This document shows, one piece after another, positions 1 to 11,723 of a stretch of 35,420 bases of DNA. The stretch covers positions 1 through 35,420 of the forward strand of contig CALHAX010000086.1 of NCBI GenBank assembly GCA_937931785.1, in the 5' to 3' direction. Every line of letters begins with the position of its first letter. Positions within the stretch are counted from its first letter, which is position 1. This DNA is from an uncultured Hyphomicrobiaceae bacterium (GTDB taxonomy: Bacteria > Pseudomonadota > Alphaproteobacteria > Rhizobiales > CALHAX01). The notes under the pieces were generated by a model. That model did no database searches and had not been told where the DNA came from. It saw only the letters and a list, made by a program, of their open reading frames with translations. A program made the translations under genes and the position numbers.

Positions 1-2226
1 TTGGGCGACGGTGCTGTCGCCGTGCATCCGTCGGATGAGCGATATGCGCCGATCATCGGGCAGTTGTGCGAGATTCCGGTTGGGCCGAAAGAGCACCGCA
101 GGCTGATCCCGATCATCACGGATGACTATCCGGATCCGGATTTCGGATCAGGTGCTGTGAAGATCACGGGCGCGCACGACTTCAACGACTACGAGGTTGC
201 CCGCCGTAACAACATCCCGATGTACCGCCTGATGGATGAAGTCGCCGACATGCGCGCCGACGGCGTGCCCTATGCGGAGGCCGCCGAGTTGGCGAAAGCA
301 CTCCTCGACGCAGGCGGGGAGCCTGACAAGGCCTACGTCGACACCATCAATCTGGTGCCGGACGAGTACCGCGGTCTGGAACGCTTCGCCGCCCGCAAGA
401 AAGTCGTCGCGGACATCGATGCCGAAGGCCTGATGATCGGGATCGAGGACAAGAAGGTCATGCAACCGTTCGGCGACCGCTCCCGCGTCGTCATCGAGCC
501 CATGCTGACGGACCAGTGGTTTGCAAATGCAGAAGAGTTGGCCAAGCCCGCAATTGCGGCCATCGAAGATGGCACAACCACGTTCCATCCCAAGAATTGG
601 GAAAAGACGTACTTCGAATGGATGCGTAACATCCAGCCCTGGTGCATTTCACGCCAACTCTGGTGGGGACACCAGATCCCGGCGTGGTATGGGCCAGACG
701 GTGAAGTTTTTGTTGCCGAGAGCGAAGCAGAGGCGCGTGCTGCAGCCGAAGAAAAGTTCGGCACAGGAGTTGAGCTTACGCGCGACGAAGATGTTCTCGA
801 CACGTGGTTTTCCTCCGCGCTCTGGCCGTTCTCGACGTTGGGCTGGCCGGACGAAACACCGGAACTTGCCCGCTACTACCCGACCAGCGTTCTGATCACT
901 GGCTTCGACATTATCTTCTTCTGGGTGGCCCGGATGATGATGTTCGGCCTGCACACGATGAAGGACGCCGAAGGCAAACCGCAGGTCCCGTTCCACGACA
1001 TCTACATTCATGCCCTCGTTCGCGACGAGGACGGGAAAAAAATGTCGAAGTCCGAAGGCAACGTTATTGACCCTGTCGATCTCATCGAGGGCATCGACAT
1101 CGACGATCTTGTGCGCAAACGCACCACGGGCCTCCGCAAACCGGAAACCGCGCCCCAGGTTGATAAACTGACGCGCGCCCGTTACCCGGATGGCTTCGAT
1201 GCCTACGGTGCAGACGCCCTGCGCTTCACGCTCTCGGTTATGGCGGCCATGGGACGGGACATCAAGCTCTCCGTCGATCGCGTTGCCGGTTACCGGAACT
1301 TTGGAACGAAACTCTGGAACGCGTCCCGCTTTGCCCAGATGAATGAATGCGTGCGAGATCCAGCTTTCGATCCCACAACCGCGCAACAGATCGTCAACAT
1401 GTGGATTGCAGGGGAAGTCGAGAAAACCGCGCACGACGTCACCCGCGCCCTTGAAGCCTACCGCTACAATGAGGCCTCCGAGGCGATCTACAAATTCACG
1501 TGGAATATCTTCTGCGACTGGTATGTCGAACTCATAAAACCGTTATTGAACGGCACGGACGAAGCGGCAAAGGCCGAAACGCGGGCGATGACCGCTTGGG
1601 TGCTCGACCAGATCCTGAAACTTCTCCACCCGTTCATGCCCTTCATCACCGAAGAGCTTTGGGACAAGCTGGCCGAACATGGTGCGGCGCGCGATACGCA
1701 ACTGATGTTGGCGCCCTGGCCGGAACTTTCCGGGTTGATCAACGAAGATGCAGGCACGGAGATCGATTGGGTCATCAATCTAGTCACCGAGATTCGGTCT
1801 GTCCGTTCCGAGATGAATGTACCTGCGGGGACAAAAATCCCGCTTGAAATGATCGAGCCTGATGACACGGTGCTTGATCGTGTCGAGCGCCACACCGGCA
1901 CCATCGAACGGCTTGCCCGTCTTGATGGCATGACACGCGCCGACGAACCTTCCGAAGGCGCAGCCCAAATAGTTGTTGGCGAAACCACGATGGCGTTGCC
2001 GCTCGCGGGAATCATGGATTTCACCGCCGAAATCGAGCGCCTGAAAAAAGATATCGCAAAACAGGAAGGTGACATCATCAAGATCGACAAGAAGCTGTCG
2101 AATGAGCAGTTCATGTCGAAAGCTCCGGATCATGTCGTCGCGGAACAACGCGAACGCAAGGCCGACGCCGAAGCCGTCGTTGCGAAACTATCGGAAGCGC
2201 TCGCACGGATCGAGACATTGCAGTAG
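1..2226 (+). CDS. valS: Valine--tRNA ligase, C-terminal part (5' end outside window)
   Basis: Class I aminoacyl-tRNA synthetase that charges tRNA-Val. The frame is open from base 1, which encodes an internal Leu rather than a start, so the N-terminal Rossmann half with HIGH is missing. What remains is the editing (CP1) domain beginning at the GDGAVAVHPSDERY region, the second half of the catalytic core with DEDGKKMSKSEGN (KMSKS at residues 347-351 of this fragment), the anticodon-binding helical bundle, and a C-terminal coiled-coil arm (about residues 670-741) rich in Glu and Lys. The 741 residues left suit a full protein of roughly 900 or more. An insertion after KMSKS (DDLVRKRTTGLRKP, then a stretch ending at ARYPDGFDAYG) is, from memory, usual in alphaproteobacterial ValS. 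The next gene starts 34 bases after the stop on the same strand, so they are probably co-transcribed. Confidence 0.97.
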   Translation: MGDGAVAVHPSDERYAPIIGQLCEIPVGPKEHRRLIPIITDDYPDPDFGSGAVKITGAHDFNDYEVARRNNIPMYRLMDEVADMRADGVPYAEAAELAKALLDAGGEPDKAYVDTINLVPDEYRGLERFAARKKVVADIDAEGLMIGIEDKKVMQPFGDRSRVVIEPMLTDQWFANAEELAKPAIAAIEDGTTTFHPKNWEKTYFEWMRNIQPWCISRQLWWGHQIPAWYGPDGEVFVAESEAEARAAAEEKFGTGVELTRDEDVLDTWFSSALWPFSTLGWPDETPELARYYPTSVLITGFDIIFFWVARMMMFGLHTMKDAEGKPQVPFHDIYIHALVRDEDGKKMSKSEGNVIDPVDLIEGIDIDDLVRKRTTGLRKPETAPQVDKLTRARYPDGFDAYGADALRFTLSVMAAMGRDIKLSVDRVAGYRNFGTKLWNASRFAQMNECVRDPAFDPTTAQQIVNMWIAGEVEKTAHDVTRALEAYRYNEASEAIYKFTWNIFCDWYVELIKPLLNGTDEAAKAETRAMTAWVLDQILKLLHPFMPFITEELWDKLAEHGAARDTQLMLAPWPELSGLINEDAGTEIDWVINLVTEIRSVRSEMNVPAGTKIPLEMIEPDDTVLDRVERHTGTIERLARLDGMTRADEPSEGAAQIVVGETTMALPLAGIMDFTAEIERLKKDIAKQEGDIIKIDKKLSNEQFMSKAPDHVVAEQRERKADAEAVVAKLSEALARIETLQ

Positions 2227-2260
2227 ACCAGACGCATACCAACATCGGGAGGCTGCTGAG

Positions 2261-3637
2261 ATGGACGCCAACGCACTTGCTGCATTGATCACGGCCTACC
2301 GTACGGCACCTCAGGACAGCATCCTGGCGCTGGTCCTCGATGGTGCATGCGAGAGCGATGACGACGGAACCGTGTTGGCGCTGATCCGCGAACTCGATAA
2401 CGCAACGCCCGCCGATCCGGACGTGCGCCGCAAGGCTGCCACGCTCGCTCTCATTGCCGATGACACAGATCTCGCCCTGGATTTTGCCAGCCGAGGCGAT
2501 GATCCCCAAGACCTCATGCTCCAGGCACGCATCCATCTCGCATGCGACGACGCGCAATCGGCCCAGCAAGCCTACAAGCGCGCGGTCACCGGTGATCCGG
2601 TGCTCGAGGACGTGGGATTTGAACAGAAACTGGACGCCGCTGCGTCGGGCGCAGACAACGACCGCGCCCTCAATGTCATCTCTCTGGATGGCCGGCGTAC
2701 GCTAAATCAGGGCGAGCAGCGTGATCTCGGTGACACGCCCGGCGTCGTTCAACCGTTCGAGCCCGCCAAGGCGCACGAGACGATCGACTTTTCCGATGTC
2801 GGCGGTCTGGAAGATGTGAAGGCCCAGATTCGTCGCCGCATCATCATGCCATTTCTGAAACCGTCATTGTTCCAGAAATTCAAGCGCCGTTCCGGTGGCG
2901 GTGTCCTGCTTTATGGTCCTCCCGGTTGCGGTAAGACGATGCTCGCGCGCGCAACGGCAGGGGAATGCAAGGCACGGTTCATCAATGTCGTGATCGCGGA
3001 GATCCTCGATATGTACGTTGGGGAGAGTGAAAAACGTCTTGCTGCTGTGTTCGAAGATGCGCGCCGCGACACGCCAACCGTGTTGTTTTTCGATGAACTG
3101 GAAGCGCTTGCCGCACGCCGTCAGTACGGAGCGAATGACCGCAGCGCGAGCATGGTCTCGACGTTTCTTGCGGAACTCGACGGTTTCGCCAGCACAAACG
3201 AAGGCGTTCTCGTGCTTGGTGCGACCAACGTGCCGTGGGCCATCGACAGCGCCTTCCGCCGTCCGGGCCGTTTCGACCGTCTGCATTTCGTGCCGCCACC
3301 GGACCGTGAAGCCCGTGCCAGCATTCTGGATCTGCTCGTCAAGGAGCTTCCCGGTGGAGTGAATACACCAACGGATGCGATTGCTGGCAAAACGAGCGGA
3401 TTTTCTGGCGCTGATCTGCGCAACCTGGTCGAAACCGCAACAGACATTGCAATTGACGAAAGCTTGCTGGCGGAAAAGGAAACCGAACTCACCACCGCCA
3501 TGTTCGAAGAGGCCATGAAGGATGTGCGTCCATCAACCATCGAATGGCTGACCACGGCGAGGAACTACGCAAAATACTCCAACGTCGGCGGGCAATATGA
3601 CGACGTGTCCAAATTCCTCGACAAGTTCTCGAAGTAA
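2261..3637 (+). CDS. TPR-AAA+ ATPase of the classical (Cdc48/Vps4/FtsH-like) clade
   Basis: 458 residues. The start is the ATG preceded by GGGAGG at 2247-2252; the open frame runs further upstream, but only inside valS. Residues 1 to about 150 look like an alpha-helical TPR-type repeat region (Ala- and Asp-rich, with DDAQSAQQAYKRAV). A classical AAA+ module follows from DFSDVGGLEDVK: Walker A GPPGCGKT at 219-226, a pore loop MYVGESEK with the aromatic-hydrophobic-Gly triad Y252-V253-G254, Walker B VLFFDE at 274-279, sensor-1 region LGATN, arginine-finger region RRPGRFDR at 333-340, and sensor-2 region SGFSGADLRN. Such ATPases thread or disassemble protein substrates. There is no protease domain or membrane anchor in this polypeptide. 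The next gene, a small membrane protein, begins 13 bases downstream, then a TPR protein. The family is clear; the substrate is unknown. Confidence 0.9.
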   Translation: MDANALAALITAYRTAPQDSILALVLDGACESDDDGTVLALIRELDNATPADPDVRRKAATLALIADDTDLALDFASRGDDPQDLMLQARIHLACDDAQSAQQAYKRAVTGDPVLEDVGFEQKLDAAASGADNDRALNVISLDGRRTLNQGEQRDLGDTPGVVQPFEPAKAHETIDFSDVGGLEDVKAQIRRRIIMPFLKPSLFQKFKRRSGGGVLLYGPPGCGKTMLARATAGECKARFINVVIAEILDMYVGESEKRLAAVFEDARRDTPTVLFFDELEALAARRQYGANDRSASMVSTFLAELDGFASTNEGVLVLGATNVPWAIDSAFRRPGRFDRLHFVPPPDREARASILDLLVKELPGGVNTPTDAIAGKTSGFSGADLRNLVETATDIAIDESLLAEKETELTTAMFEEAMKDVRPSTIEWLTTARNYAKYSNVGGQYDDVSKFLDKFSK

Positions 3638-3650
3638 GCGAACCACACCC

Positions 3651-4043
3651 ATGGCGCGAACAGATCTACGCTATCAGATTGTCGATGAGCCACCGGCAGG
3701 ACCGCTTGCACGGTTTGCGATGCCGCCGATCCTGCCATTTTTCGCGTTCATGCTGTTCCCGCTTGCGGGCATTCCACTGCTGCTCTTCAACACGATTGCG
3801 CTGAAAGGTCGGACGTGGGGTAGAGAAATCATCCTGCTCGCGTTCGCGGGTGCGATGCGGTTTGGCATCCCCTACAGCATTGCTGTGTGGTTGCACGGCC
3901 AGGGTGTGCCGATCGGCTGGTTCGGCTATCTGCACATCATTCCGCTTGGGGTCTCGCTCTATCTTGCCTACCGCGTGTTTTACAACCAGTCGATAACCCA
4001 CCAGATCCGAACTTATTTTTCTCCGCAAGGAGTGCGCGGCTGA
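3651..4043 (+). CDS. Small multipass membrane protein in the AAA+ cassette
   Basis: 130 residues with no family I recognise. After a short polar N-terminus (about residues 1-22) come several hydrophobic segments (PPILPFFAFMLFPLAGIPLL, then EIILLAFAGAMRFGIPYSIAVWL, then GYLHIIPLGVSLYLAYRVF), consistent with three or four inner-membrane helices. The C-terminus is polar (SITHQIRTYFSP). The start is 13 bases after the AAA+ gene stop, and the stop TGA overlaps the ATG of the TPR gene (ATGA at 4040s), which argues for translational coupling. It may anchor the AAA+ ATPase or the TPR protein to the membrane; that role is inferred only from position. Confidence 0.8.
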   Translation: MARTDLRYQIVDEPPAGPLARFAMPPILPFFAFMLFPLAGIPLLLFNTIALKGRTWGREIILLAFAGAMRFGIPYSIAVWLHGQGVPIGWFGYLHIIPLGVSLYLAYRVFYNQSITHQIRTYFSPQGVRG

Positions 4044-4969
4044 TGGAAGACGCGACCGAACTGTTGAACCGCGCTGCGATGGATATGCGGATTGGGCAAA
4101 CCGCAGGGGCCATCGACAAACTGCGCGATGTTCTCACCATCACACCGGATGATGCGCTCGCACACACGCTGCTTGCGTCGTGTCTCATGGGACAACGACG
4201 CCTGCATGCGGCGCGTCATGAAGCGGATCTCGCGATACAGTTACAGCCGGCATTCCCGTTTGCGCACCGCATGCGTGGATTGATCGCGATGTCGGAGAAC
4301 GAGCTCGAACGCATGGGCGAGGCCATGCAGGAGGCCGTGGCGCTCGATCCGGAAGACAGCGACAATGTCATCGGGCTCGCACGCTATCACAAGGTTCGCA
4401 ATGATCTGCCTACGGCACGCGGTCTTGCCGAGAAGGCGCTGGAGATGGAACCCGGCGACAACGGCGCGCTGAATTTTATCGGCGAGATTGCGCTGGAGTC
4501 GGGAGACCTCGATCGCGCACGCCAGGCAGCGCAATCCGTGCTGGAGGCGAACCCGGAAGATGTCGACGCACTTGTGCTCCTCGGAAATGTTGCTTTGCAG
4601 TCCGGCGACGTTGACGCGGCGCGCGATCTTGCGTTGTGGGCTCTGCAACGCAATGCTGATGATGCGGACGCGTTGCGTCTGCTGACAGACATCAAAATGC
4701 GGGAGAACAAGCTGCTCGGCCTGTTCTGGAAATTCCAGACCTGGATGGGACGTCTCGGCGCCGAGCGGGCGATGATCGTGCTGATCGTTGCGTTTGTCCT
4801 CTATTCATTTGCACGGGTCGCACTGGTCGACTTCGGCCTTCAGCAGTACGGTAACATCCTGCAAATGGTCTGGCTCGGGCTGTGTCTCTACACGTGGGTT
4901 GGCGCTGGCATACAAAACCGTATGGTGCGTAAGGAACTGGAGCGCGTCCGGCTACGTCCGGGATTCTGA
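4043..4969 (+). CDS. TPR protein with C-terminal membrane segments
   Basis: 308 residues. The ATG overlaps the stop of the preceding gene by one base, and AAGGAG lies at 4027-4032, ten bases upstream. The first about 230 residues are a run of TPR-like helical hairpins spaced by about 34 residues, with recurring elements such as LTITPDDALAHTLLASCL, LAIQLQPAFPFAHRMRGL, VALDPEDSDNVIGLARY and LEANPEDVDALVLLGNVAL. Near the C-terminus are two hydrophobic stretches, about 244-262 (MIVLIVAFVLYSFARVAL) and 272-291 (ILQMVWLGLCLYTWVGAGI), ending in a basic tail. It is likely a membrane-tethered scaffold with TPRs in the cytoplasm. Its place directly behind an AAA+ gene and a small membrane protein suggests a shared complex. 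The TPR assignment is firm; the partner is inferred. Confidence 0.88.
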   Translation: MEDATELLNRAAMDMRIGQTAGAIDKLRDVLTITPDDALAHTLLASCLMGQRRLHAARHEADLAIQLQPAFPFAHRMRGLIAMSENELERMGEAMQEAVALDPEDSDNVIGLARYHKVRNDLPTARGLAEKALEMEPGDNGALNFIGEIALESGDLDRARQAAQSVLEANPEDVDALVLLGNVALQSGDVDAARDLALWALQRNADDADALRLLTDIKMRENKLLGLFWKFQTWMGRLGAERAMIVLIVAFVLYSFARVALVDFGLQQYGNILQMVWLGLCLYTWVGAGIQNRMVRKELERVRLRPGF

Positions 4970-4980
4970 GGGAAAATACC

Positions 4981-5622
4981 ATGTTCGTCCCTGACATGTT
5001 CGCCGCGAAAGACAACGAAGAAACATTTCGGATCATCGATGCCAATCCGTTTGCAACCGTGATTGGTCAAACCGATGCCGGAATGATCGCAACACACGTG
5101 CCGGTCATTATCCGCCGTGAGGGCGAAAAACTCACCCACATCGAATGTCATTTTTCCCGCGGCAACACGCACTGGAAAGAGATTGAGGGCGATGTCCTCG
5201 TGATCTTCCGCGGCGTCGAGCAATATATCACACCAAGCTGGTACGAGACCAAACAGGAAACGGGCAAGGTGGTGCCGACGTGGAACTATGAAGCCGTCCA
5301 TGTGAACGGCACAGCGCGCGCCATTCAGGATGCAGATTGGCTTCTTCGCCACGTCTCGGACGTCACCGACCGGTTCGAGGCCCCGCGTGACGCGCCGTGG
5401 GCAACAAGCGATGCCCCGGACGGCTTCATGGATGTCATGGTGCGCGGCATCGTCGGTGTGGAAATCGAAGTGACCAACGTCATTACCAAGGTGAAGGCTA
5501 GCCAGAACCGCAATAAGGCAGACCGCAAAGGTGTCATCGAGGGTCTCAACGCGGAGACCGAACCGGCAGCTCACAAGATGGCGCAATTGGTTTCACGCTA
5601 CGCGGACTGGGATACCGGCTAA
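4981..5622 (+). CDS. FMN-binding negative transcriptional regulator family (PaiB-like)
   Basis: 213 residues, matching the usual length of the PaiB/FMN_bind_2 family. Recognisable marks are the N-terminal MFVPDMFAAKD pattern, HVPVIIRREG followed by IECHFSRGNTHWKE, the FRGVEQYITPSWYETKQ segment, VPTWNYEAVHVNGTA, and near the C-terminus VKASQNRNKADRKGVIEGL. The fold is a flavin-reductase-like split barrel that binds FMN; the Bacillus PaiB member represses protease and sporulation genes, but many family members have no known role. AGGG at 4969-4972 lies eight bases before the ATG. The gene starts 11 bases after the TPR gene and probably ends that operon. No DNA-binding helix-turn-helix is evident, so acting as a regulator is not certain. 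Confidence 0.9.
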   Translation: MFVPDMFAAKDNEETFRIIDANPFATVIGQTDAGMIATHVPVIIRREGEKLTHIECHFSRGNTHWKEIEGDVLVIFRGVEQYITPSWYETKQETGKVVPTWNYEAVHVNGTARAIQDADWLLRHVSDVTDRFEAPRDAPWATSDAPDGFMDVMVRGIVGVEIEVTNVITKVKASQNRNKADRKGVIEGLNAETEPAAHKMAQLVSRYADWDTG

Positions 5623-5690: not shown

Positions 5691-6017
5691 ATGCTCCGAC
5701 TGCTGTCACTTCTTGCTATTCTGGGCGGACCAGCCGCAGCGCTCGTATATGCTGGACGCAAGGCGTTCGGGAGTGCCGTGAATTCCCAGCCAGACAACAC
5801 CTTGAACGCAATTTTCACAGGGCTACCCGTTGAGGCGGCCTATATCGCGCCGTTCCTGGCTATTGCACTCGTTGCGATGGGGTACTTCGTCTTGCGCTTG
5901 ATCGGTTTCGCGGTGTCCGTGATTGGCAGTGCTGCGATCATTGCAATGATTGTTGCCGTGTTCTTCAAGCCGGAATGGATTGATACAGCAAAGCAGATGC
6001 TCGCGGCAGCATCCTGA
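5691..6017 (+). CDS. Small hypothetical membrane protein
   Basis: 108 residues, not recognised. The N-terminus (MLRLLSLLAILGGPAAALVYAG) is a hydrophobic segment that could be a signal anchor. Two further hydrophobic stretches follow (YIAPFLAIALVAMGYFVLRLIGF and VSVIGSAAIIAMIVAVFF), ending in a short amphipathic tail (KPEWIDTAKQMLAAAS). It starts 68 bases after the PaiB-like gene and faces the M48 peptidase gene on the other strand, whose stop is 18 bases away. No strong ribosome binding site is visible. It is taken as real because of its clean membrane topology and because nothing else occupies the region, but it could be a chance hydrophobic frame. Confidence 0.6.
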   Translation: MLRLLSLLAILGGPAAALVYAGRKAFGSAVNSQPDNTLNAIFTGLPVEAAYIAPFLAIALVAMGYFVLRLIGFAVSVIGSAAIIAMIVAVFFKPEWIDTAKQMLAAAS

Positions 6018-6035: not shown

Positions 6036-7211
6036 TCAGGACTTGCAGATCGCCTTGAGCGCTTTCCATTGTGCGTCACTCAGGACCGGGCGCGGCGTAT
6101 AAGTCGCGGCTGCGTTGATCGTCTTGACGCGCTCTTCCGAGGGCGGATGCGTGCTGAACATTTCAAGCGATTGCGCAAGACCGCGTTGCAGTTTCCTGCG
6201 CCGTTCGAACGCGGAGTCGGTCTCACCCTTTTCTTTCTTCAACGTCTTGTCGCCATCAAATCCATGTTTCTTCAGCATGCGGGTGAAAAATCCAGCCAAT
6301 GGTTTCGGATCGACAGCAGACTGCTTGAGGATTTTCAACCCGATATCGTCCGCTTCCCGCTCTGCGGCACGATTGAACGTCAGCGCCACCAGAACCGTCC
6401 CGATGCCGCCAAAGGTTTCCGAACCTCCGGCGAAGATAAACTGCGCGGCGACAGTAAGCCCCATCGCGCGCACGACACCGGTTTCGGGGTGCAGTTTCAC
6501 GACGTGCCCGATTTCGTGCGCCAGAACGCCGGTGACTTCCTCGGCGCTTTCCGCCCCTTGCAGCAATCCGCGTGTCAGAACGATCTGTCCGCCGGGCAGG
6601 GCGAACGCATTCTCAAGTCCCCAGTCGATGACGCGGATCGATTGCACACCATCTCCGTCGCGTTTCAATCGATCATAAAGAACGGCAACCGCAGCATCGC
6701 CGTCGGTTGTAGAGCAGGTCTTGTACTTGTCTTTCGTAAGAGACGTAAAAAGCGAGTCTCCGATCTGGGCCCGCATCTCCTGCGGCATCATGCGGGCGAG
6801 GGTCTTCGCGGGCGACAGGTCGAGGATATAGAACAGTCCGGCCCCGGTCAGGAGGACGGCCAGTATCGCCAGGGCCGGTTTGGTGAAACGCCACAGCCAG
6901 GCGCTGGACGAGGTGTGTTCAGCTTTGGCGACGAGAGTCCGAATGAACGTGCGGTCTTCGACGAACAACGTTGCACCGGGCATATCCGGATGATGCACAA
7001 CAACGTCAAGATCCTGTGCATGAAGGCCCGCGCTGGTGGTGAGCGTGCCGTAGTCCCATTCCCACGGATCAGGACCAGCCGCTGACGCGACCTCGGCGTC
7101 AGCGGGCCAGAATACGATGCCGTGCGCACGCATTTCGCCATGCACTTCGACTGACCGAGCAGATGCTCCGTCACTGAAACGTCCTGAGAAGAGTTGGCGA
7201 TCAGAACCCAT
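6036..7211 (-). CDS. M48 family metallopeptidase with N-terminal extra domain
   Basis: Zinc metalloprotease of the HtpX/Ste24 group. With the start at 7211 it has 391 residues. The N-terminal about 100 residues (FSGRFSDGASARSVEV onward) form a separate domain that I recall as DUF7092-like; a membrane helix follows (about 105-125, KPALAILAVLLTGAGLFYIL); then comes the peptidase domain with HEIGH at 232-236 and the downstream NRAAEREADDIGL motif, whose Glu is the third zinc ligand. This resembles periplasmic BepA/LoiP-like or Oma1-like proteases with one anchor. The start at 7211 lies inside the end of the upstream gene (11-base overlap), giving translational coupling; an in-frame ATG at 7298 would overlap much further and is less likely. 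Its role is probably membrane or envelope protein quality control, inferred from the family. Confidence 0.9.
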   Translation of the reverse strand: MGSDRQLFSGRFSDGASARSVEVHGEMRAHGIVFWPADAEVASAAGPDPWEWDYGTLTTSAGLHAQDLDVVVHHPDMPGATLFVEDRTFIRTLVAKAEHTSSSAWLWRFTKPALAILAVLLTGAGLFYILDLSPAKTLARMMPQEMRAQIGDSLFTSLTKDKYKTCSTTDGDAAVAVLYDRLKRDGDGVQSIRVIDWGLENAFALPGGQIVLTRGLLQGAESAEEVTGVLAHEIGHVVKLHPETGVVRAMGLTVAAQFIFAGGSETFGGIGTVLVALTFNRAAEREADDIGLKILKQSAVDPKPLAGFFTRMLKKHGFDGDKTLKKEKGETDSAFERRRKLQRGLAQSLEMFSTHPPSEERVKTINAAATYTPRPVLSDAQWKALKAICKS

Positions 7212-8358
7212 CGATATCAAACGCTTCTGCCAATCCTTCGCCGGTTGTGCCCAATGCAGCGGCGTTCTGGACAATACCTTCGACATCCACCGTACCATGA
7301 ACAGAGAGACGCTCCACGAAGTACCTGGACACGCGCGCCATGGCCACAGGCTGAAGAATCGTCAGGCTGCCAAGAACAATCAGGATGTTCGTGAAGAACA
7401 GCCAGAGCATCCCGCCATAACCAAGGTTGAGATCGAACCGCGCAGAGGAATACGTGGTATGGCGCGTGATGTAGTTTGTGATGCTGGTGAAATAAACGAT
7501 CTGCAAGAGACCGAGCACAAACACATAGACGAACATGACAGCCGCAAGGATCCATATGAACTGCGTTGCCGCTGCCGGGTTGCTCTCGATTTCAGCAAGC
7601 TTTTCCGGATCGGAGAACATGCTGAAATCAAGGCCGACCATCCACGCGACAAGCCATGCGGCAGCGCCGACAATCGCGAGTCCGCCAAAGAAGATGCCGG
7701 CAAACCGCGCATAAATATCCCCCACATCACCATCGTATTTGAACAATTCAGAGCCGAACTGCTGCTCGTTCGTCATGCGTTGGTAAAGCGCGTGAGTGCG
7801 ATACGGCAAAATCCATCCGGCCGTGAATATGATCAGGATAGATGTCCAGATGTACGTCCATGCATAGCGCCATGGTGAGCCTGTAAGGGTGCCACGGATA
7901 CCACGCCAGTTTGTGCGCGAAAGTCGATAGCGTCGTGCACGGTATACGGCCACACCGAACAACACGAACACGATGACATAGAACAACACCTGAAACGTAA
8001 TTGTCGCCCAGTGGTTCTCGCCGAGATAGAATGTCAGCCCGAGAAGGATCAAAATGAACGGCAGCAGAAGCACACCGAATATAATCACAAACCCCAGGAA
8101 CAATTCCTTGCCCGTGCCCGTGTAGAGCAGAGGCTCATTGTTAATTCGCACGGATGACCAGATCCGTTTGCGCACCTCGGTCTTGCCCCAGAACGAATAG
8201 ATCCCGAGTGTGATGATGCTCAGAAAGAAGTTCAGAAAACTCAATCCGGTCAACGACCATGGACTGCCGCGCCACGTAACCTCGACAGGTTCACCGCTTG
8301 AAGTATCCGAGCCGCGTTGACCGAATTCGGGAACTGCGGGGGGCATTGTCTGATCCAT
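7201..8358 (-). CDS. DUF898 (YjgN-like) multipass membrane protein
   Basis: 385 residues when started at the ATG at 8358, which has AGGA about ten bases upstream; the longer frame to 8451 adds a polar stretch (ending NRTHSTMDQ) without a binding site. The signature is the DUF898 pattern: WRGSPWSLTGLSFLNFFLSIITLGIYSFWGKTEVRKRIW, here given in two parts as an N-terminal membrane helix followed by a conserved FWGKTEVRKR loop, repeated loosely further on (NYITRHTTYSSARFDL, then VSRYFVERLSVHG). About six to eight membrane helices are visible. The biochemical function of the family is unknown. Its stop overlaps the start of the M48 peptidase, so the two are coupled and may act together in the membrane. 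Confidence 0.9.
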   Translation of the reverse strand: MDQTMPPAVPEFGQRGSDTSSGEPVEVTWRGSPWSLTGLSFLNFFLSIITLGIYSFWGKTEVRKRIWSSVRINNEPLLYTGTGKELFLGFVIIFGVLLLPFILILLGLTFYLGENHWATITFQVLFYVIVFVLFGVAVYRARRYRLSRTNWRGIRGTLTGSPWRYAWTYIWTSILIIFTAGWILPYRTHALYQRMTNEQQFGSELFKYDGDVGDIYARFAGIFFGGLAIVGAAAWLVAWMVGLDFSMFSDPEKLAEIESNPAAATQFIWILAAVMFVYVFVLGLLQIVYFTSITNYITRHTTYSSARFDLNLGYGGMLWLFFTNILIVLGSLTILQPVAMARVSRYFVERLSVHGTVDVEGIVQNAAALGTTGEGLAEAFDIDGF

Positions 8359-8587
8359 GGTGCTGTGTGTCCTGTTTTGGAGGCAGGGCGATTCGTAATG
8401 CACGCGCACGTTGCTGTGAGCGTGGCATGGATTCCCCTCTTGAATGCTCACAAAACAGTGGAATCCCCAGGACGATGTTTGCGATGTGAGGCACTTTCAG
8501 AACATGTGATGTGCAAGGTGTTGTTCTTGCGTTATGAATCGCAGCGGGCAAAGCCACGATGTAAGGCGACGATCCGTTCGACTTCTG

Positions 8588-9208
8588 ATGGGCAGGGACA
8601 TGGGCAATAACGATTTTTCATGGGTCGGGGCGCTTGGCGGCGTGAACCTTTTCCTGTTTGCATGGTCCGCCACGGGGGCCACAGAACTGCTGGCCCGCGA
8701 GCAGGGTGTTTTGGAAATCGCGCAACTGGTTCTGATCGCGCTCGCCATGCTGGTGTTTCTCATCACCGTTTACCGCAGTTCCGGCCCGGCGCGCAGCGCT
8801 GCCGTGACCCTGGTCGGGCTCAGCCTCTGCTTTTTCTATCGTGAGCTCGATCTGGCTGCCCTCGGAGTCACTGGCCCGGTTGCCGAACTCTCCCGCAGTT
8901 CCATCCGCGATGTGGTTCTGGGCATCGGTGTCTCCATTCTCATGGTTTATGTCTGGTCGCGCCGTGCCGATCTGCCAGCATGGTGGCGGTTCGCAACGCG
9001 GCCAGCAGCGTGGCCGCTCTTCGGAACGGGGATCTTGCTGGGGGTGGGCGTCATCCTGAGCACAACCCTCAAAGGCGATCTTCAGGGGCAGTTCTGGGAG
9101 GAACTGATCGAGTTCAATGGTTATGTTCTGTTCGTGCTGGCGGCCTGTCGACACGGGTACATCGCGACCTATGAGGACGTCATCGAGCGTCCAATTGTGC
9201 CGAACTAA
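8588..9208 (+). CDS. Hypothetical inner-membrane protein
   Basis: 206 residues from the ATG at 8588; ATGs at 8534 and 8600 are also in frame and none has a convincing ribosome binding site, so the start is uncertain. About six hydrophobic segments alternate with short charged loops: GALGGVNLFLFAWSATG, IAQLVLIALAMLVFLITVY, AAVTLVGLSLCFFYREL, IRDVVLGIGVSILMVYVW, WPLFGTGILLGVGVIL and FNGYVLFVLAACRHGY. Conserved-looking polar positions inside or near helices include FYREL and EELIEFNGY, which could be functional. I do not recognise the family. It diverges from the DUF898 gene across a 229-base intergenic region. Confidence 0.75.
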   Translation: MGRDMGNNDFSWVGALGGVNLFLFAWSATGATELLAREQGVLEIAQLVLIALAMLVFLITVYRSSGPARSAAVTLVGLSLCFFYRELDLAALGVTGPVAELSRSSIRDVVLGIGVSILMVYVWSRRADLPAWWRFATRPAAWPLFGTGILLGVGVILSTTLKGDLQGQFWEELIEFNGYVLFVLAACRHGYIATYEDVIERPIVPN

Positions 9209-9291
9209 GGTGTGTTAACCACGCACTGAACATAGGGGTAGGTCACCAGATTGCCCCTTTCAGAACAAGTCCTTGCCGATTTGCGGCTCTA

Positions 9292-9324
9292 TCCCGACCC
9301 TCAGGATCACAGACGGGTCGGGAG
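9292..9324 (+). promoter_or_regulatory. Leader hairpin overlapping a ribosome binding site
   Basis: TCCCGACCC at 9292-9300 is the exact reverse complement of GGGTCGGGA at 9315-9323, giving a nine-base-pair GC-rich stem around a 14-base loop. The 3' arm contains most of GGGAG (9320-9324), the ribosome binding site of the gene starting at 9334. If transcribed, the folded leader would block translation initiation of that gene. No T-run follows, so it does not look like a terminator. Confidence 0.5.
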
Positions 9325-9333
9325 TACTCATCC

Positions 9334-9546
9334 ATGCGTTTCGCACTTCTCATTGCCTTCATCTTGTTGACGGGCGGGTTCCTGGGCAGCACCGCCTTCC
9401 AGTCGGGTGAACAGATCGAGCACCTCAGTCAGGCACAGTTGGTTGCCTTGGGAGAATCGGCGGCGGTGATTGCAGCTCTTTTGCTGCCAATGGTTCTGAT
9501 GCTTCTTGGCATGATGGCGCGCGGTGCAACACGGGCGATGCGGTAA
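9334..9546 (+). CDS. Small membrane protein of 70 residues
   Basis: 70 residues, not recognised. The N-terminal hydrophobic segment (RFALLIAFILLTGGFLGSTAF) could be a signal peptide or anchor. A short polar linker follows (SGEQIEHLSQAQLVALGE), then a second helix (AAVIAALLLPMVLMLLGMMA) and a basic end (RGATRAMR). GGGAG at 9320-9324 is well placed nine bases before the ATG, which supports it as a real gene. That binding site lies in the 3' arm of a strong hairpin. It precedes the ExoR-like gene on the same strand, but a 212-base gap makes co-transcription doubtful. Confidence 0.65.
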   Translation: MRFALLIAFILLTGGFLGSTAFQSGEQIEHLSQAQLVALGESAAVIAALLLPMVLMLLGMMARGATRAMR

Positions 9547-9614
9547 AGGCATTTAGTCCGATCCCGTAAGACGAAAGTCTTTGATGGGTGTGTGTTACTC
9601 ATGTGCCACGCAGT

Positions 9615-9630
9615 GAGGCATTCATGCCTC
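9615..9630. repeat. Perfect palindrome between short direct repeats
   Basis: GAGGCATTCATGCCTC is an inverted repeat (GAGGCA, four-base loop TTCA, TGCCTC) followed by TTT. Direct copies of GTGCCAC sit on either side, at 9603-9609 and 9635-9641. It could be a weak terminator for the 70-residue membrane protein or a protein-binding site upstream of the ExoR-like gene. Confidence 0.4.
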
Positions 9631-9758
9631 TTTGGTGCCACAAACAGAAGCGACGTTCTCATTGGGGATTGCGGTTGGGCTACCGGATAAAATCCAGTTC
9701 GATCGACCACGCGCTAACAAGTAAGGGCCCCGTTTTGGAGGCAACACGGAAGTTGTTT

Positions 9759-10865
9759 GTGAAATCGACATTTTGTAACGCAGGCACTGGACCTGAGCGT
9801 TTACGCCAGGTGCGCCTTGTTCATGGAAAGCGTGTGGGTTTGGCTTGCGCGGTTCTGTTGTTCGCCGCTTTGTTCACCGGCGTGCCCGACAACAGTGCGA
9901 CAGCTGCAAGCGGATCGAGTGTGATCTACGATAGTCCGGAAGACGCCTACAAGGCTGGTCGGCGCGCAATGAAGCGCGGCGACTACCGATCCGCACTCGC
10001 ACCTTTGCAGAGTGCCGCCGACGGAGGGGTGTTCCTGGCAAAATTCTACCTGGCCGAACTCCTGTCCGATACCAGACACATCTTCGCCGATCCTAATCGA
10101 GCTTACATGTTCTATTCAGAACTGATCGACCGGAATCCGGATGTTGATCCGGCTTACGATTATCGCGCTCGGTTTGTGGCGCGTGCTTATGTCATGAAGG
10201 GGCGATACCTTTCAGGCGTCTTGCCGATTGATGGGTTGCAACGCTCCCAGTCCCTTGCGCGGCGTTTGTTCGGACATGCTGCGACCTACCTCGATGACCC
10301 GGACGCTCAGTTCGAGTTCGCACGTATGCTGCTGAAAGGTCGAGGTGGTGCCCGCAACGTGCGTAGCGGCAAACATTATTTGTCCACGCTCTCACGTAAG
10401 GGACATGCCGCTGCTCAAGGCTATCTGGCAGAGTTGTTCTGGCATGGCGACTATGTGCCAAAACGTGAAGATTACGCACTTGCGTTGAGCACGCTGGCAG
10501 TGCGTAACGCCCGCCGTGACGATCAAATATGGATCGATGAACTGCATCACGAGATATCATGTCAGACGTCGGCTCAGGTGCATGATAAAGCGGAGCATCT
10601 GCTTGTGCGGTGGAAGAAAACGCATCCGCCACAAAGGATTTATCCGCGTGAAACGGCGGACGCGCTTGGTAATCGTGGCGCACAATGGACATGTGGAAGC
10701 AATCCGAACGTACCAGTCGATGGACAAAAACCGGCTCTTGTTGCCACGGATGAGCCCGAGGGCAAGGAGGCCTGGCCAGATCAGGATCGCCTTGAAGCCT
10801 TGCATGGGTCCATGTTCGGACTGGGCGGAAACATTGAAAAAGAACGTCTCGACAGTGATCAGTAG
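9759..10865 (+). CDS. ExoR-like exported Sel1/TPR repeat protein
   Basis: 368 residues from the GTG at 9759, which has GGAAG at 9748-9752; a TTG at 9753 with GGAGG at 9737-9741 is an alternative. ATGs at 9588 and 9624 are in frame but lie before the palindrome at 9615 and add an unlikely polar leader. A signal-like segment (KRVGLACAVLLFAALFTGVP, then ATAAS) precedes repeats that match the ExoR pattern as I recall it: EDAYKAGRRAMKRGDYRSAL, NRAYMFYSELIDRNPDVDP, FVARAYVMKGRYLSGVLP, LFGHAATYLDDPDAQFEFARML, KGHAAAQGYLAELFWHGD. In Sinorhizobium and Agrobacterium, periplasmic ExoR holds the sensor kinase ExoS (ChvG) inactive and so restrains exopolysaccharide production. Here the C-terminal about 100 residues (after DDQIWIDELHHE) extend past the about 268-residue rhizobial protein and look disordered. 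ExoS and ChvI are not in the window. Confidence 0.75.
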   Translation: MKSTFCNAGTGPERLRQVRLVHGKRVGLACAVLLFAALFTGVPDNSATAASGSSVIYDSPEDAYKAGRRAMKRGDYRSALAPLQSAADGGVFLAKFYLAELLSDTRHIFADPNRAYMFYSELIDRNPDVDPAYDYRARFVARAYVMKGRYLSGVLPIDGLQRSQSLARRLFGHAATYLDDPDAQFEFARMLLKGRGGARNVRSGKHYLSTLSRKGHAAAQGYLAELFWHGDYVPKREDYALALSTLAVRNARRDDQIWIDELHHEISCQTSAQVHDKAEHLLVRWKKTHPPQRIYPRETADALGNRGAQWTCGSNPNVPVDGQKPALVATDEPEGKEAWPDQDRLEALHGSMFGLGGNIEKERLDSDQ

Positions 10866-10940
10866 GTCCTCAATATAGCGGCCTCATCCAGCGTTCTGAT
10901 CTTGGAGAATTCCTCGCCTTTGACGTGTTGATTGTCTCTC

Positions 10941-11723
10941 TCAAACTGCGAGATCAATCATCACGGGAACATGATCCGATGGTTTTTCCCACCCGCGAGT
11001 CTCTCTCATGACCCGGCAGCTTTCCAGACGGTCCGCCGCCTGAGGCGAGAGCAGCATGTGGTCAATGCGTATCCCGTTGTTTTTTGGCCATGCGCCGGCT
11101 TGATAATCCCAGAACGTGTACTGTGCATCTTCCGCATTCACGGCGCGCAAGGCATCCGTAAAACCAAGGTTCATGATGGCACGGAACGCAGCATGTGTTT
11201 CAGGTCGGTAGAGCGCATCACCCTCCCATGCGGAGGGAGCATGAACGTCACGCGCTTCCGGAATAACATTGTAATCACCCGCCAACACCAATGGCTCTTC
11301 ATATGCCAGAAGTGTCTCCGCATGAGCTTTAAGATGGGACATCCACTCCAGCTTGTACGGATATTTTTCCGTATCAACCGGGTTGCCGTTCGGAAGATAA
11401 ATAGAAGCGACGCGTACTATGCCCTTGTCTCCCGGAATGACCGCCTCGATATATCGTGCCTGTTCATCAGCCTCGTTCCCCGGCAAGCCGATGATCACTT
11501 CGTCGAACGGTGTTTTCGAGAAAATCGCCACGCCGTTGAAGCTTTTTTGTCCGTGCACGGCAACATTATAACCAAGATCCTCAAAGACATCTGCGGGGAA
11601 AGCCTCGGTCATGCTCTTGACCTCCTGCAGGCATGCGACGTCCGGCTGCGCTTCTTTCAACCATGTCTTGACGGTTTCCAGACGAGCCTTGACGCCATTG
11701 ATATTCCACGTGGCAATTTTCAT
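10941..11723 (-). CDS. xthA: Exodeoxyribonuclease III
   Basis: 260 residues, the normal length of the ExoIII/AP endonuclease family. It cuts DNA at abasic sites and has 3'-5' exonuclease and 3'-phosphatase activity in base-excision repair. Motifs are all present: MKIATWNINGVKAR at the N-terminus, CLQEVK with the metal-binding Glu, the SIYLPNGNP active-site region, LAGDYNVIPEARDVH with the catalytic Asp and Asn, and IRIDHMLLS and KPSDHVPVM at the end, with the catalytic Asp-His pair. It faces the ExoR-like gene, with 75 bases between the two stops, and is neighbour to it in other Hyphomicrobiales as I recall. Confidence 0.97.
   Translation of the reverse strand: MKIATWNINGVKARLETVKTWLKEAQPDVACLQEVKSMTEAFPADVFEDLGYNVAVHGQKSFNGVAIFSKTPFDEVIIGLPGNEADEQARYIEAVIPGDKGIVRVASIYLPNGNPVDTEKYPYKLEWMSHLKAHAETLLAYEEPLVLAGDYNVIPEARDVHAPSAWEGDALYRPETHAAFRAIMNLGFTDALRAVNAEDAQYTFWDYQAGAWPKNNGIRIDHMLLSPQAADRLESCRVMRETRGWEKPSDHVPVMIDLAV

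Follow-up and report, generated by a model that had tools for sequence, protein, structure and literature searches.

The window analysed here, a stretch of 35,420 nucleotides from a contig of an uncultured Hyphomicrobiaceae bacterium, contains at positions 2261-4969 (+) three co-oriented, almost gapless genes, which encode an AAA ATPase with a TPR-like N-terminal domain, a multipass membrane protein of 130 residues and a TPR protein with a two-helix membrane tail. The anatomy of this cassette and the association of its genes across bacteria are observed directly, and from them we propose that the three proteins form a substrate-threading machine, tethered to the membrane and lacking a protease, for the extraction or disassembly of membrane proteins, a mechanism to which we assign a probability of about 0.45. 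The features of the cassette are as follows.

2261-3637, +: TPR-AAA ATPase gene, 458 residues (open reading frame, Pfam, alignment and AlphaFold2)
2267-2644, +: N-terminal eight-helix TPR-like domain, residues 3-128 (AlphaFold2; Pfam TPR matches in homologues)
2645-2788, +: low-confidence, mostly disordered linker from the TPR domain to the AAA module, about residues 129-176 (pLDDT below 50 at 133-163)
2915-2938, +: Walker A motif GPPGCGKT, residues 219-226 (invariant in 47 of 47 members, except C223, 46 of 47)
3014-3022, +: pore loop 1, YVG, residues 252-254 (aromatic residue in 47 of 47, glycine in 47 of 47)
3086-3097, +: Walker B motif FFDE, residues 276-279 (D278 and E279 invariant in 47 members)
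3260-3271, +: arginine-finger segment R334-P-G-R337 (R334 and R337 invariant in 47 members)
3530-3634, +: C-terminal family signature PST.EW..(A)RN.....N..G.Y, residues 424-458, two helices (W429, N441, G444 and Y446 invariant)
3651-4043, +: multipass membrane protein, 130 residues, with N-terminal motif Y.I.DEP (three long AlphaFold2 helices, the first of them kinked)
4043-4969, +: TPR protein with two-helix membrane tail, 308 residues (TPR_2, 66.7 bits; hydropathy)
4697-4966, +: conserved tail of the TPR protein, residues 219-308 (a profile of the tail recovers the partner across phyla)

The ATPase gene is separated from the 130-residue gene by 13 bp, and the stop codon TGA of the latter (4041-4043) overlaps by one base with the ATG of the TPR gene (4043-4045), forming the sequence TGATG; the tight cassette with a 13-base gap and a stop/start overlap, reported in a preliminary description of this DNA, is thus confirmed. 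The sequence GGGAGG is well spaced 5' of the ATPase gene start, as is AAGGAG for the TPR gene; a clear ribosome-binding site is not seen in the sequence for the 130-residue gene. A sigma-70-like promoter was not found within 2100-5100, which is weak evidence either way. The three genes are likely to constitute one operon. The location behind valS, pointed out previously, holds for the window, and valS also lies upstream in genome G038 (locus L034), with an intervening gene, but it is absent from the other cassettes that were read, and a link to valS was rejected as a general feature. Convergent to the cassette are an M48 peptidase gene (6036-7298, -) and the gene of a DUF898 membrane protein (7201-8451, -), the former lying just downstream of the latter and overlapping it. 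Two small membrane proteins of the window without a Pfam family (5691-6017 and 8534-9208) have relatives near the G038 cassette (34% and 35% identity), a lineage-level synteny that is not seen elsewhere.

The ATPase and its closest relatives

The ATPase has a TPR-like N domain and an intact single-ring AAA module of the Cdc48 type, in which the pore loop is aromatic. In the AlphaFold2 model, based on 47 homologues (mean pLDDT 88.7), eight N-terminal helices are followed by the linker, a single AAA module and two C-terminal helices. A Pfam search of the 458-residue protein identifies AAA (134 bits) and AAA_lid_3, and Pfam TPR families match the N-terminal region in up to 33 of the 47 homologues. 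All elements of an active ATPase are present and invariant in the 47-member alignment, including Walker A, Walker B, the sensor-1 residue N323 and the arginine fingers, while pore loop 1 follows the pattern W/Y/F, a mostly hydrophobic residue and then G. Pfam and NCBIfam profiles reveal no protease domain in the window ATPase, and hydropathy reveals no transmembrane (TM) segment in the AAA protein in nearly all loci listed. The invariance of the motifs and the agreement of AlphaFold2 and Pfam bear out the initial reading of an AAA+ ATPase with all motifs, among them the YVG pore loop, a helical-repeat N-terminus and no protease; its assignment to the active, threading-type AAA proteins is supported by the invariant ATPase residues and the aromatic pore loop.

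A comparison of profiles for Vps4, Cdc48 and FtsH had been suggested as a check. Of the NCBIfam profiles, CDC48 gives the best score for the window ATPase (203.7 bits), ahead of the proteasome-activating nucleotidase (197.5), with FtsH (190.4) and CdvC (158.3) lower. Both a PDB sequence search and a fold search place p97/Cdc48 first. This is not independent proof in either case, since the former ranking adds up the matches to two AAA modules and sequence also enters into the latter. These tests favour an AAA domain that is closest to Cdc48/p97, not to Vps4. A Pfam search of the window protein finds no match to an MIT domain at E≤0.1, and according to Pfam and the alignment no Vps4_C domain is present, another conserved C-terminal signature being found instead. 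With MIT and Vps4_C absent and Cdc48/p97 ahead in the sequence and fold searches, membership of the Vps4 family was rejected. Of the likeness to ATPases such as Vps4 and Cdc48, noted earlier from the pore loop, that to Cdc48 is retained, and that to Vps4 is not supported by these family features.

Although the window AAA module is nearest to that of Cdc48/p97 by sequence and fold, with about 40% identity to p97 in the best-superposed match, the window ATPase has one AAA ring, not two, a TPR domain replaces the Cdc48 N domain, and its 204 bits lie far below the family cut-off of 802.65 (~803). The likeness to FtsH lies in a classical AAA module at the inner membrane, with an AAA region that is 39-42% identical; unlike FtsH, the window AAA protein has neither an M41 protease domain nor a TM segment, and a separate, better FtsH candidate is found in the window genome (G000:C94). 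Msp1 has an N-terminal membrane helix of its own. The window ATPase differs from Msp1/ATAD1 in that it contains no TM segment, its N domain is predicted to consist of soluble TPR-like helices and a separate protein serves as the anchor, but it resembles them as a single-ring AAA protein, extraction of membrane proteins being the activity of Msp1/ATAD1 (PMC9273213). The curated model of IetA, from the IetAS defence system, matches the AAA region only, with 86 of 510 bits, which is below its cut-off. The actinobacterial Cdc48-like protein Cpa is a different bacterial relative of Cdc48 (PMC6017811).

The two membrane partners

The AlphaFold2 model of the 130-residue protein (pLDDT 86.7) contains helices at residues 27-35/37-51, 56-83 and 96-123, and in an alignment of 11 family members the residues Y8, D12, E13 and P14 are invariant. 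Its positively charged loops would fit a topology with four short passes or with a re-entrant first hairpin. Searches of Pfam, NCBIfam and PADLOC, as well as fold searches, did not match the protein to a known family or fold. Homologues in loci L116, L117, L132 and L133 are longer at the C-terminus by a hydrophobic stretch of ~30-45 residues, which is lacking in the window copy. Homology of the 130-residue protein to the extra helices of fused TPR proteins with six TM segments (see below) was rejected, as the hhalign comparison is not significant (probability about 1%) and leaves a topological parallel only; homology to the small membrane protein of the Bacillota loci was likewise rejected, with hhalign again not significant.

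The body of the 308-residue protein is a TPR superhelix. According to hydropathy, its tail consists of an amphipathic juxtamembrane segment, hydrophobic segments at about residues 242-262 and 273-293, and a basic C-terminus; the loop between the hydrophobic segments is short, near-neutral and uncharged-to-acidic. Because of this near-neutral loop and the basic C-terminus, the positive-inside rule predicts that both termini are cytosolic (N-in/C-in). The expected TPRs on both the ATPase and its membrane partner are accordingly found, as Pfam TPR matches in the ATPase homologues and as the TPR_2 match in the 308-residue protein, and the anticipated membrane anchoring is likewise supported.

Association of the genes across bacteria

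A scan across whole genomes yielded 80 loci from named species, and the count covered 79 family loci, the majority of which come from such species. A neighbour was scored as adjacent if it lies close by on the same strand, matches a TPR profile and contains one or more hydrophobic segments. Inspection added five loci in which the 130-residue gene intervenes. A gene for a TPR protein with membrane segments adjoins the ATPase gene in 56 of the 79 family loci; the corresponding figures are 0 of 27 for the FtsH controls and 9 of 712 for the other genes in the same loci. In view of these frequencies, the cassette is a real unit and not a chance neighbourhood. The ATPase and TPR-TM genes often overlap by 4 bp. 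By the automated rule 23 of the 79 loci have no adjacent partner, but in at least three of these (L048, L051 and L067) the TPR partner is present and was missed because the ORF start had been set wrongly or the contig ended there. Partner-bearing loci occur in eight phyla, i.e., Pseudomonadota, Planctomycetota, Verrucomicrobiota, Bacteroidota, Fibrobacterota, Cyanobacteriota, Actinomycetota and Bacillota, and the partner is adjacent in listed members of Streptomyces, Mycolicibacterium, Lysinibacillus and Chitinophaga. Clustering of the neighbours shows that the TPR-membrane protein is the only widely recurring family besides the ATPase, and reveals no protease that recurs in the unit across loci.

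The organization of the membrane part varies. In Planctomycetota, Verrucomicrobiota, Bacteroidota and Calothrix the usual form is a single partner of 400-450 residues, which combines TPRs with four to six TM segments. The Bacillota loci L058 and L063 have the order small membrane protein, TPR-TM protein, AAA protein. Pseudomonadota as a rule have the three-gene form (L034, L035, L036, L038, L071, L125, L127, L132 and L133), the small gene being absent from L037, a metagenome-assembled genome; in these data the 130-residue type of small membrane protein is confined to this phylum. A Phycisphaerales genome (L091) contains two tandem TPR-multi-TM paralogues after the ATPase, at 9112-10383 and 10394-11662.

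Among 385 genomes of Alphaproteobacteria the full-length ATPase is present in four, the window genome, G124, G171 and G303, and all four contain both membrane genes; in G303 the small protein has diverged and was recognised on reading the locus. In G171 the ATPase gene, with other genes to either side of it, and the membrane pair are located on different contigs, so that the co-occurrence does not rest on adjacency. Conserved adjacency, together with co-occurrence where the genes are separated as in G171, upholds the view that the three genes form one functional unit. The small-protein profile detected no genuine copy of the 130-residue protein without the ATPase in the Alphaproteobacteria sample; a weak match outside the cassette in G200 was rejected, as it lies in an unrelated 596-residue multi-TM protein. 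Beyond these alphaproteobacterial genomes, the three genes are contiguous in two further Pseudomonadota, G448 and G474. In a sample of 398 Pseudomonadota the ATPase is found in four genomes (about 1%), with the full cassette in all four. The order sample also includes a solitary ATPase relative without membrane partners, in G029 (L033, G029:C2:60000-76000; 6967-8358, -), with a pore loop KYPG and a partly lost arginine-finger segment; this copy may have decayed or been repurposed.

The Pseudomonadota cassettes group into a single supported set (support 99, 12 rows), and most phyla cluster, in a tree of AAA modules built without Vps4 and without a broad sampling of archaea. The ATPase family thus seems to be an old one in bacteria, thinly spread among Pseudomonadota; in the literature, an origin from archaea has been proposed.

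Ravi et al. (mSystems 2024, PMC11237479) devote a single sentence to bacterial AAA+ ATPases encoded beside a TPR protein with six TM segments, with ACB74714.1 as the example and no function given; the ATPase is termed VPS4-like and membrane-proximal action is proposed in silico. Exactly such a pair is present in the Verrucomicrobiota loci L043, L056, L057 and L102. The window also contains an AAA+ gene beside a TPR/multi-TM gene, but its TM part is divided between two genes, for the 130-residue multipass protein and the TPR-2TM protein, and the present tests favour Cdc48 in place of the VPS4-like label. Verrucomicrobiota sequences related to the published example fall within the ATPase family in the tree. 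Very probably, the published pair is the present ATPase family in fused form. A functional description of the cassette was not found in the literature, in which few subscription journals were covered, the in-silico mention being the only one. The preliminary statement that no described bacterial system with such a layout is known therefore goes too far, since the published pair corresponds to the arrangement of most phyla here. What is new here is the split membrane part in Pseudomonadota; the pairing of an AAA protein with a TPR-multi-TM protein was already known, though uncharacterised.

Proposed mechanism and alternatives

In the proposed mechanism the AAA protein would assemble as a hexamer and would be recruited by the TPR membrane partner, whose termini are predicted to be cytosolic; contacts between TPRs would hold it at the cytoplasmic membrane, on the inner face. 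The pore loops would exert a pull on a membrane protein or on one subunit of a complex in the membrane, resulting in extraction or disassembly. The substrate may be chosen by the TPR surfaces, and the 130-residue protein may act as a co-anchor, as a substrate guide or as the substrate itself. By analogy, the closest parallel in mechanism is Pex15-Pex1/Pex6 of the yeast peroxisome, in which a tail-anchored protein recruits a classical AAA protein whose aromatic pore loops thread substrates (PMC5762779). The Pex proteins are different ones, forming a double-ring heterohexamer in a eukaryotic organelle, and no homology is claimed.

The same anatomy, including the absence of a protease from the unit, would fit a machine in which the AAA protein and its membrane partners aid the assembly or insertion of membrane complexes, instead of their extraction or disassembly, and TPRs often serve as scaffolds for clients. 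Dedicated assembly factors, however, often adjoin the operon of their client, and neighbour clustering shows no recurrent client operon beside the unit; moreover, the strictly aromatic pore loop favours threading. We consider such an assembly chaperone unlikely. Rather improbable is a remodelling activity of the ESCRT/Vps4 type, the published in-silico suggestion of Ravi et al. (PMC11237479), in which the AAA protein would dismantle a membrane polymer and the TPR-membrane protein would take the place of Snf7/ESCRT-III. The single AAA ring with a C-terminal helix and the membrane partner agree with this suggestion, whereas the missing MIT and Vps4_C domains, the CdvC score of 158 bits versus 204 for CDC48, and a partner that is a TPR protein and not a filament-former argue against it. 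In addition, no Snf7 or PspA gene was recognised near the ATPase in the loci, where neighbours were clustered and not all annotated.

In other systems Cdc48-type AAA modules feed proteases, and the ATPase could similarly unfold membrane proteins for a separately encoded protease. The unit shows no co-occurring protease across loci, and neither a proteolytic domain nor a known protease-docking motif was identified, which makes regulated proteolysis an improbable function. A defence or conflict module acting at the membrane upon phage infection would be in line with the patchy distribution in Pseudomonadota, but is very improbable and was dismissed, as PADLOC matches only the generic AAA domain of IetA/TRIP13, 50,697 phage records give 0 matches and plasmids few, no defence neighbours were recognised, and the tree follows phyla, unlike that of rapidly exchanged defence genes.

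Beyond the window, the membrane-tethered threading machine proposed here might tentatively, and with considerable doubt, be regarded as a widespread bacterial system for the extraction of membrane proteins, in which a TPR receptor recruits a Cdc48-type motor and membrane proteins are removed or recycled without a built-in protease, as a mechanistic counterpart of Pex15-Pex1/6 or Msp1. Cdc48-type threading motors with membrane receptors are known from eukaryotic quality control. The presence of the pair in at least eight phyla makes extraction or disassembly of bacterial membrane proteins without FtsH directly testable, and in the split form of Pseudomonadota the anchor is divided into two separately deletable genes.
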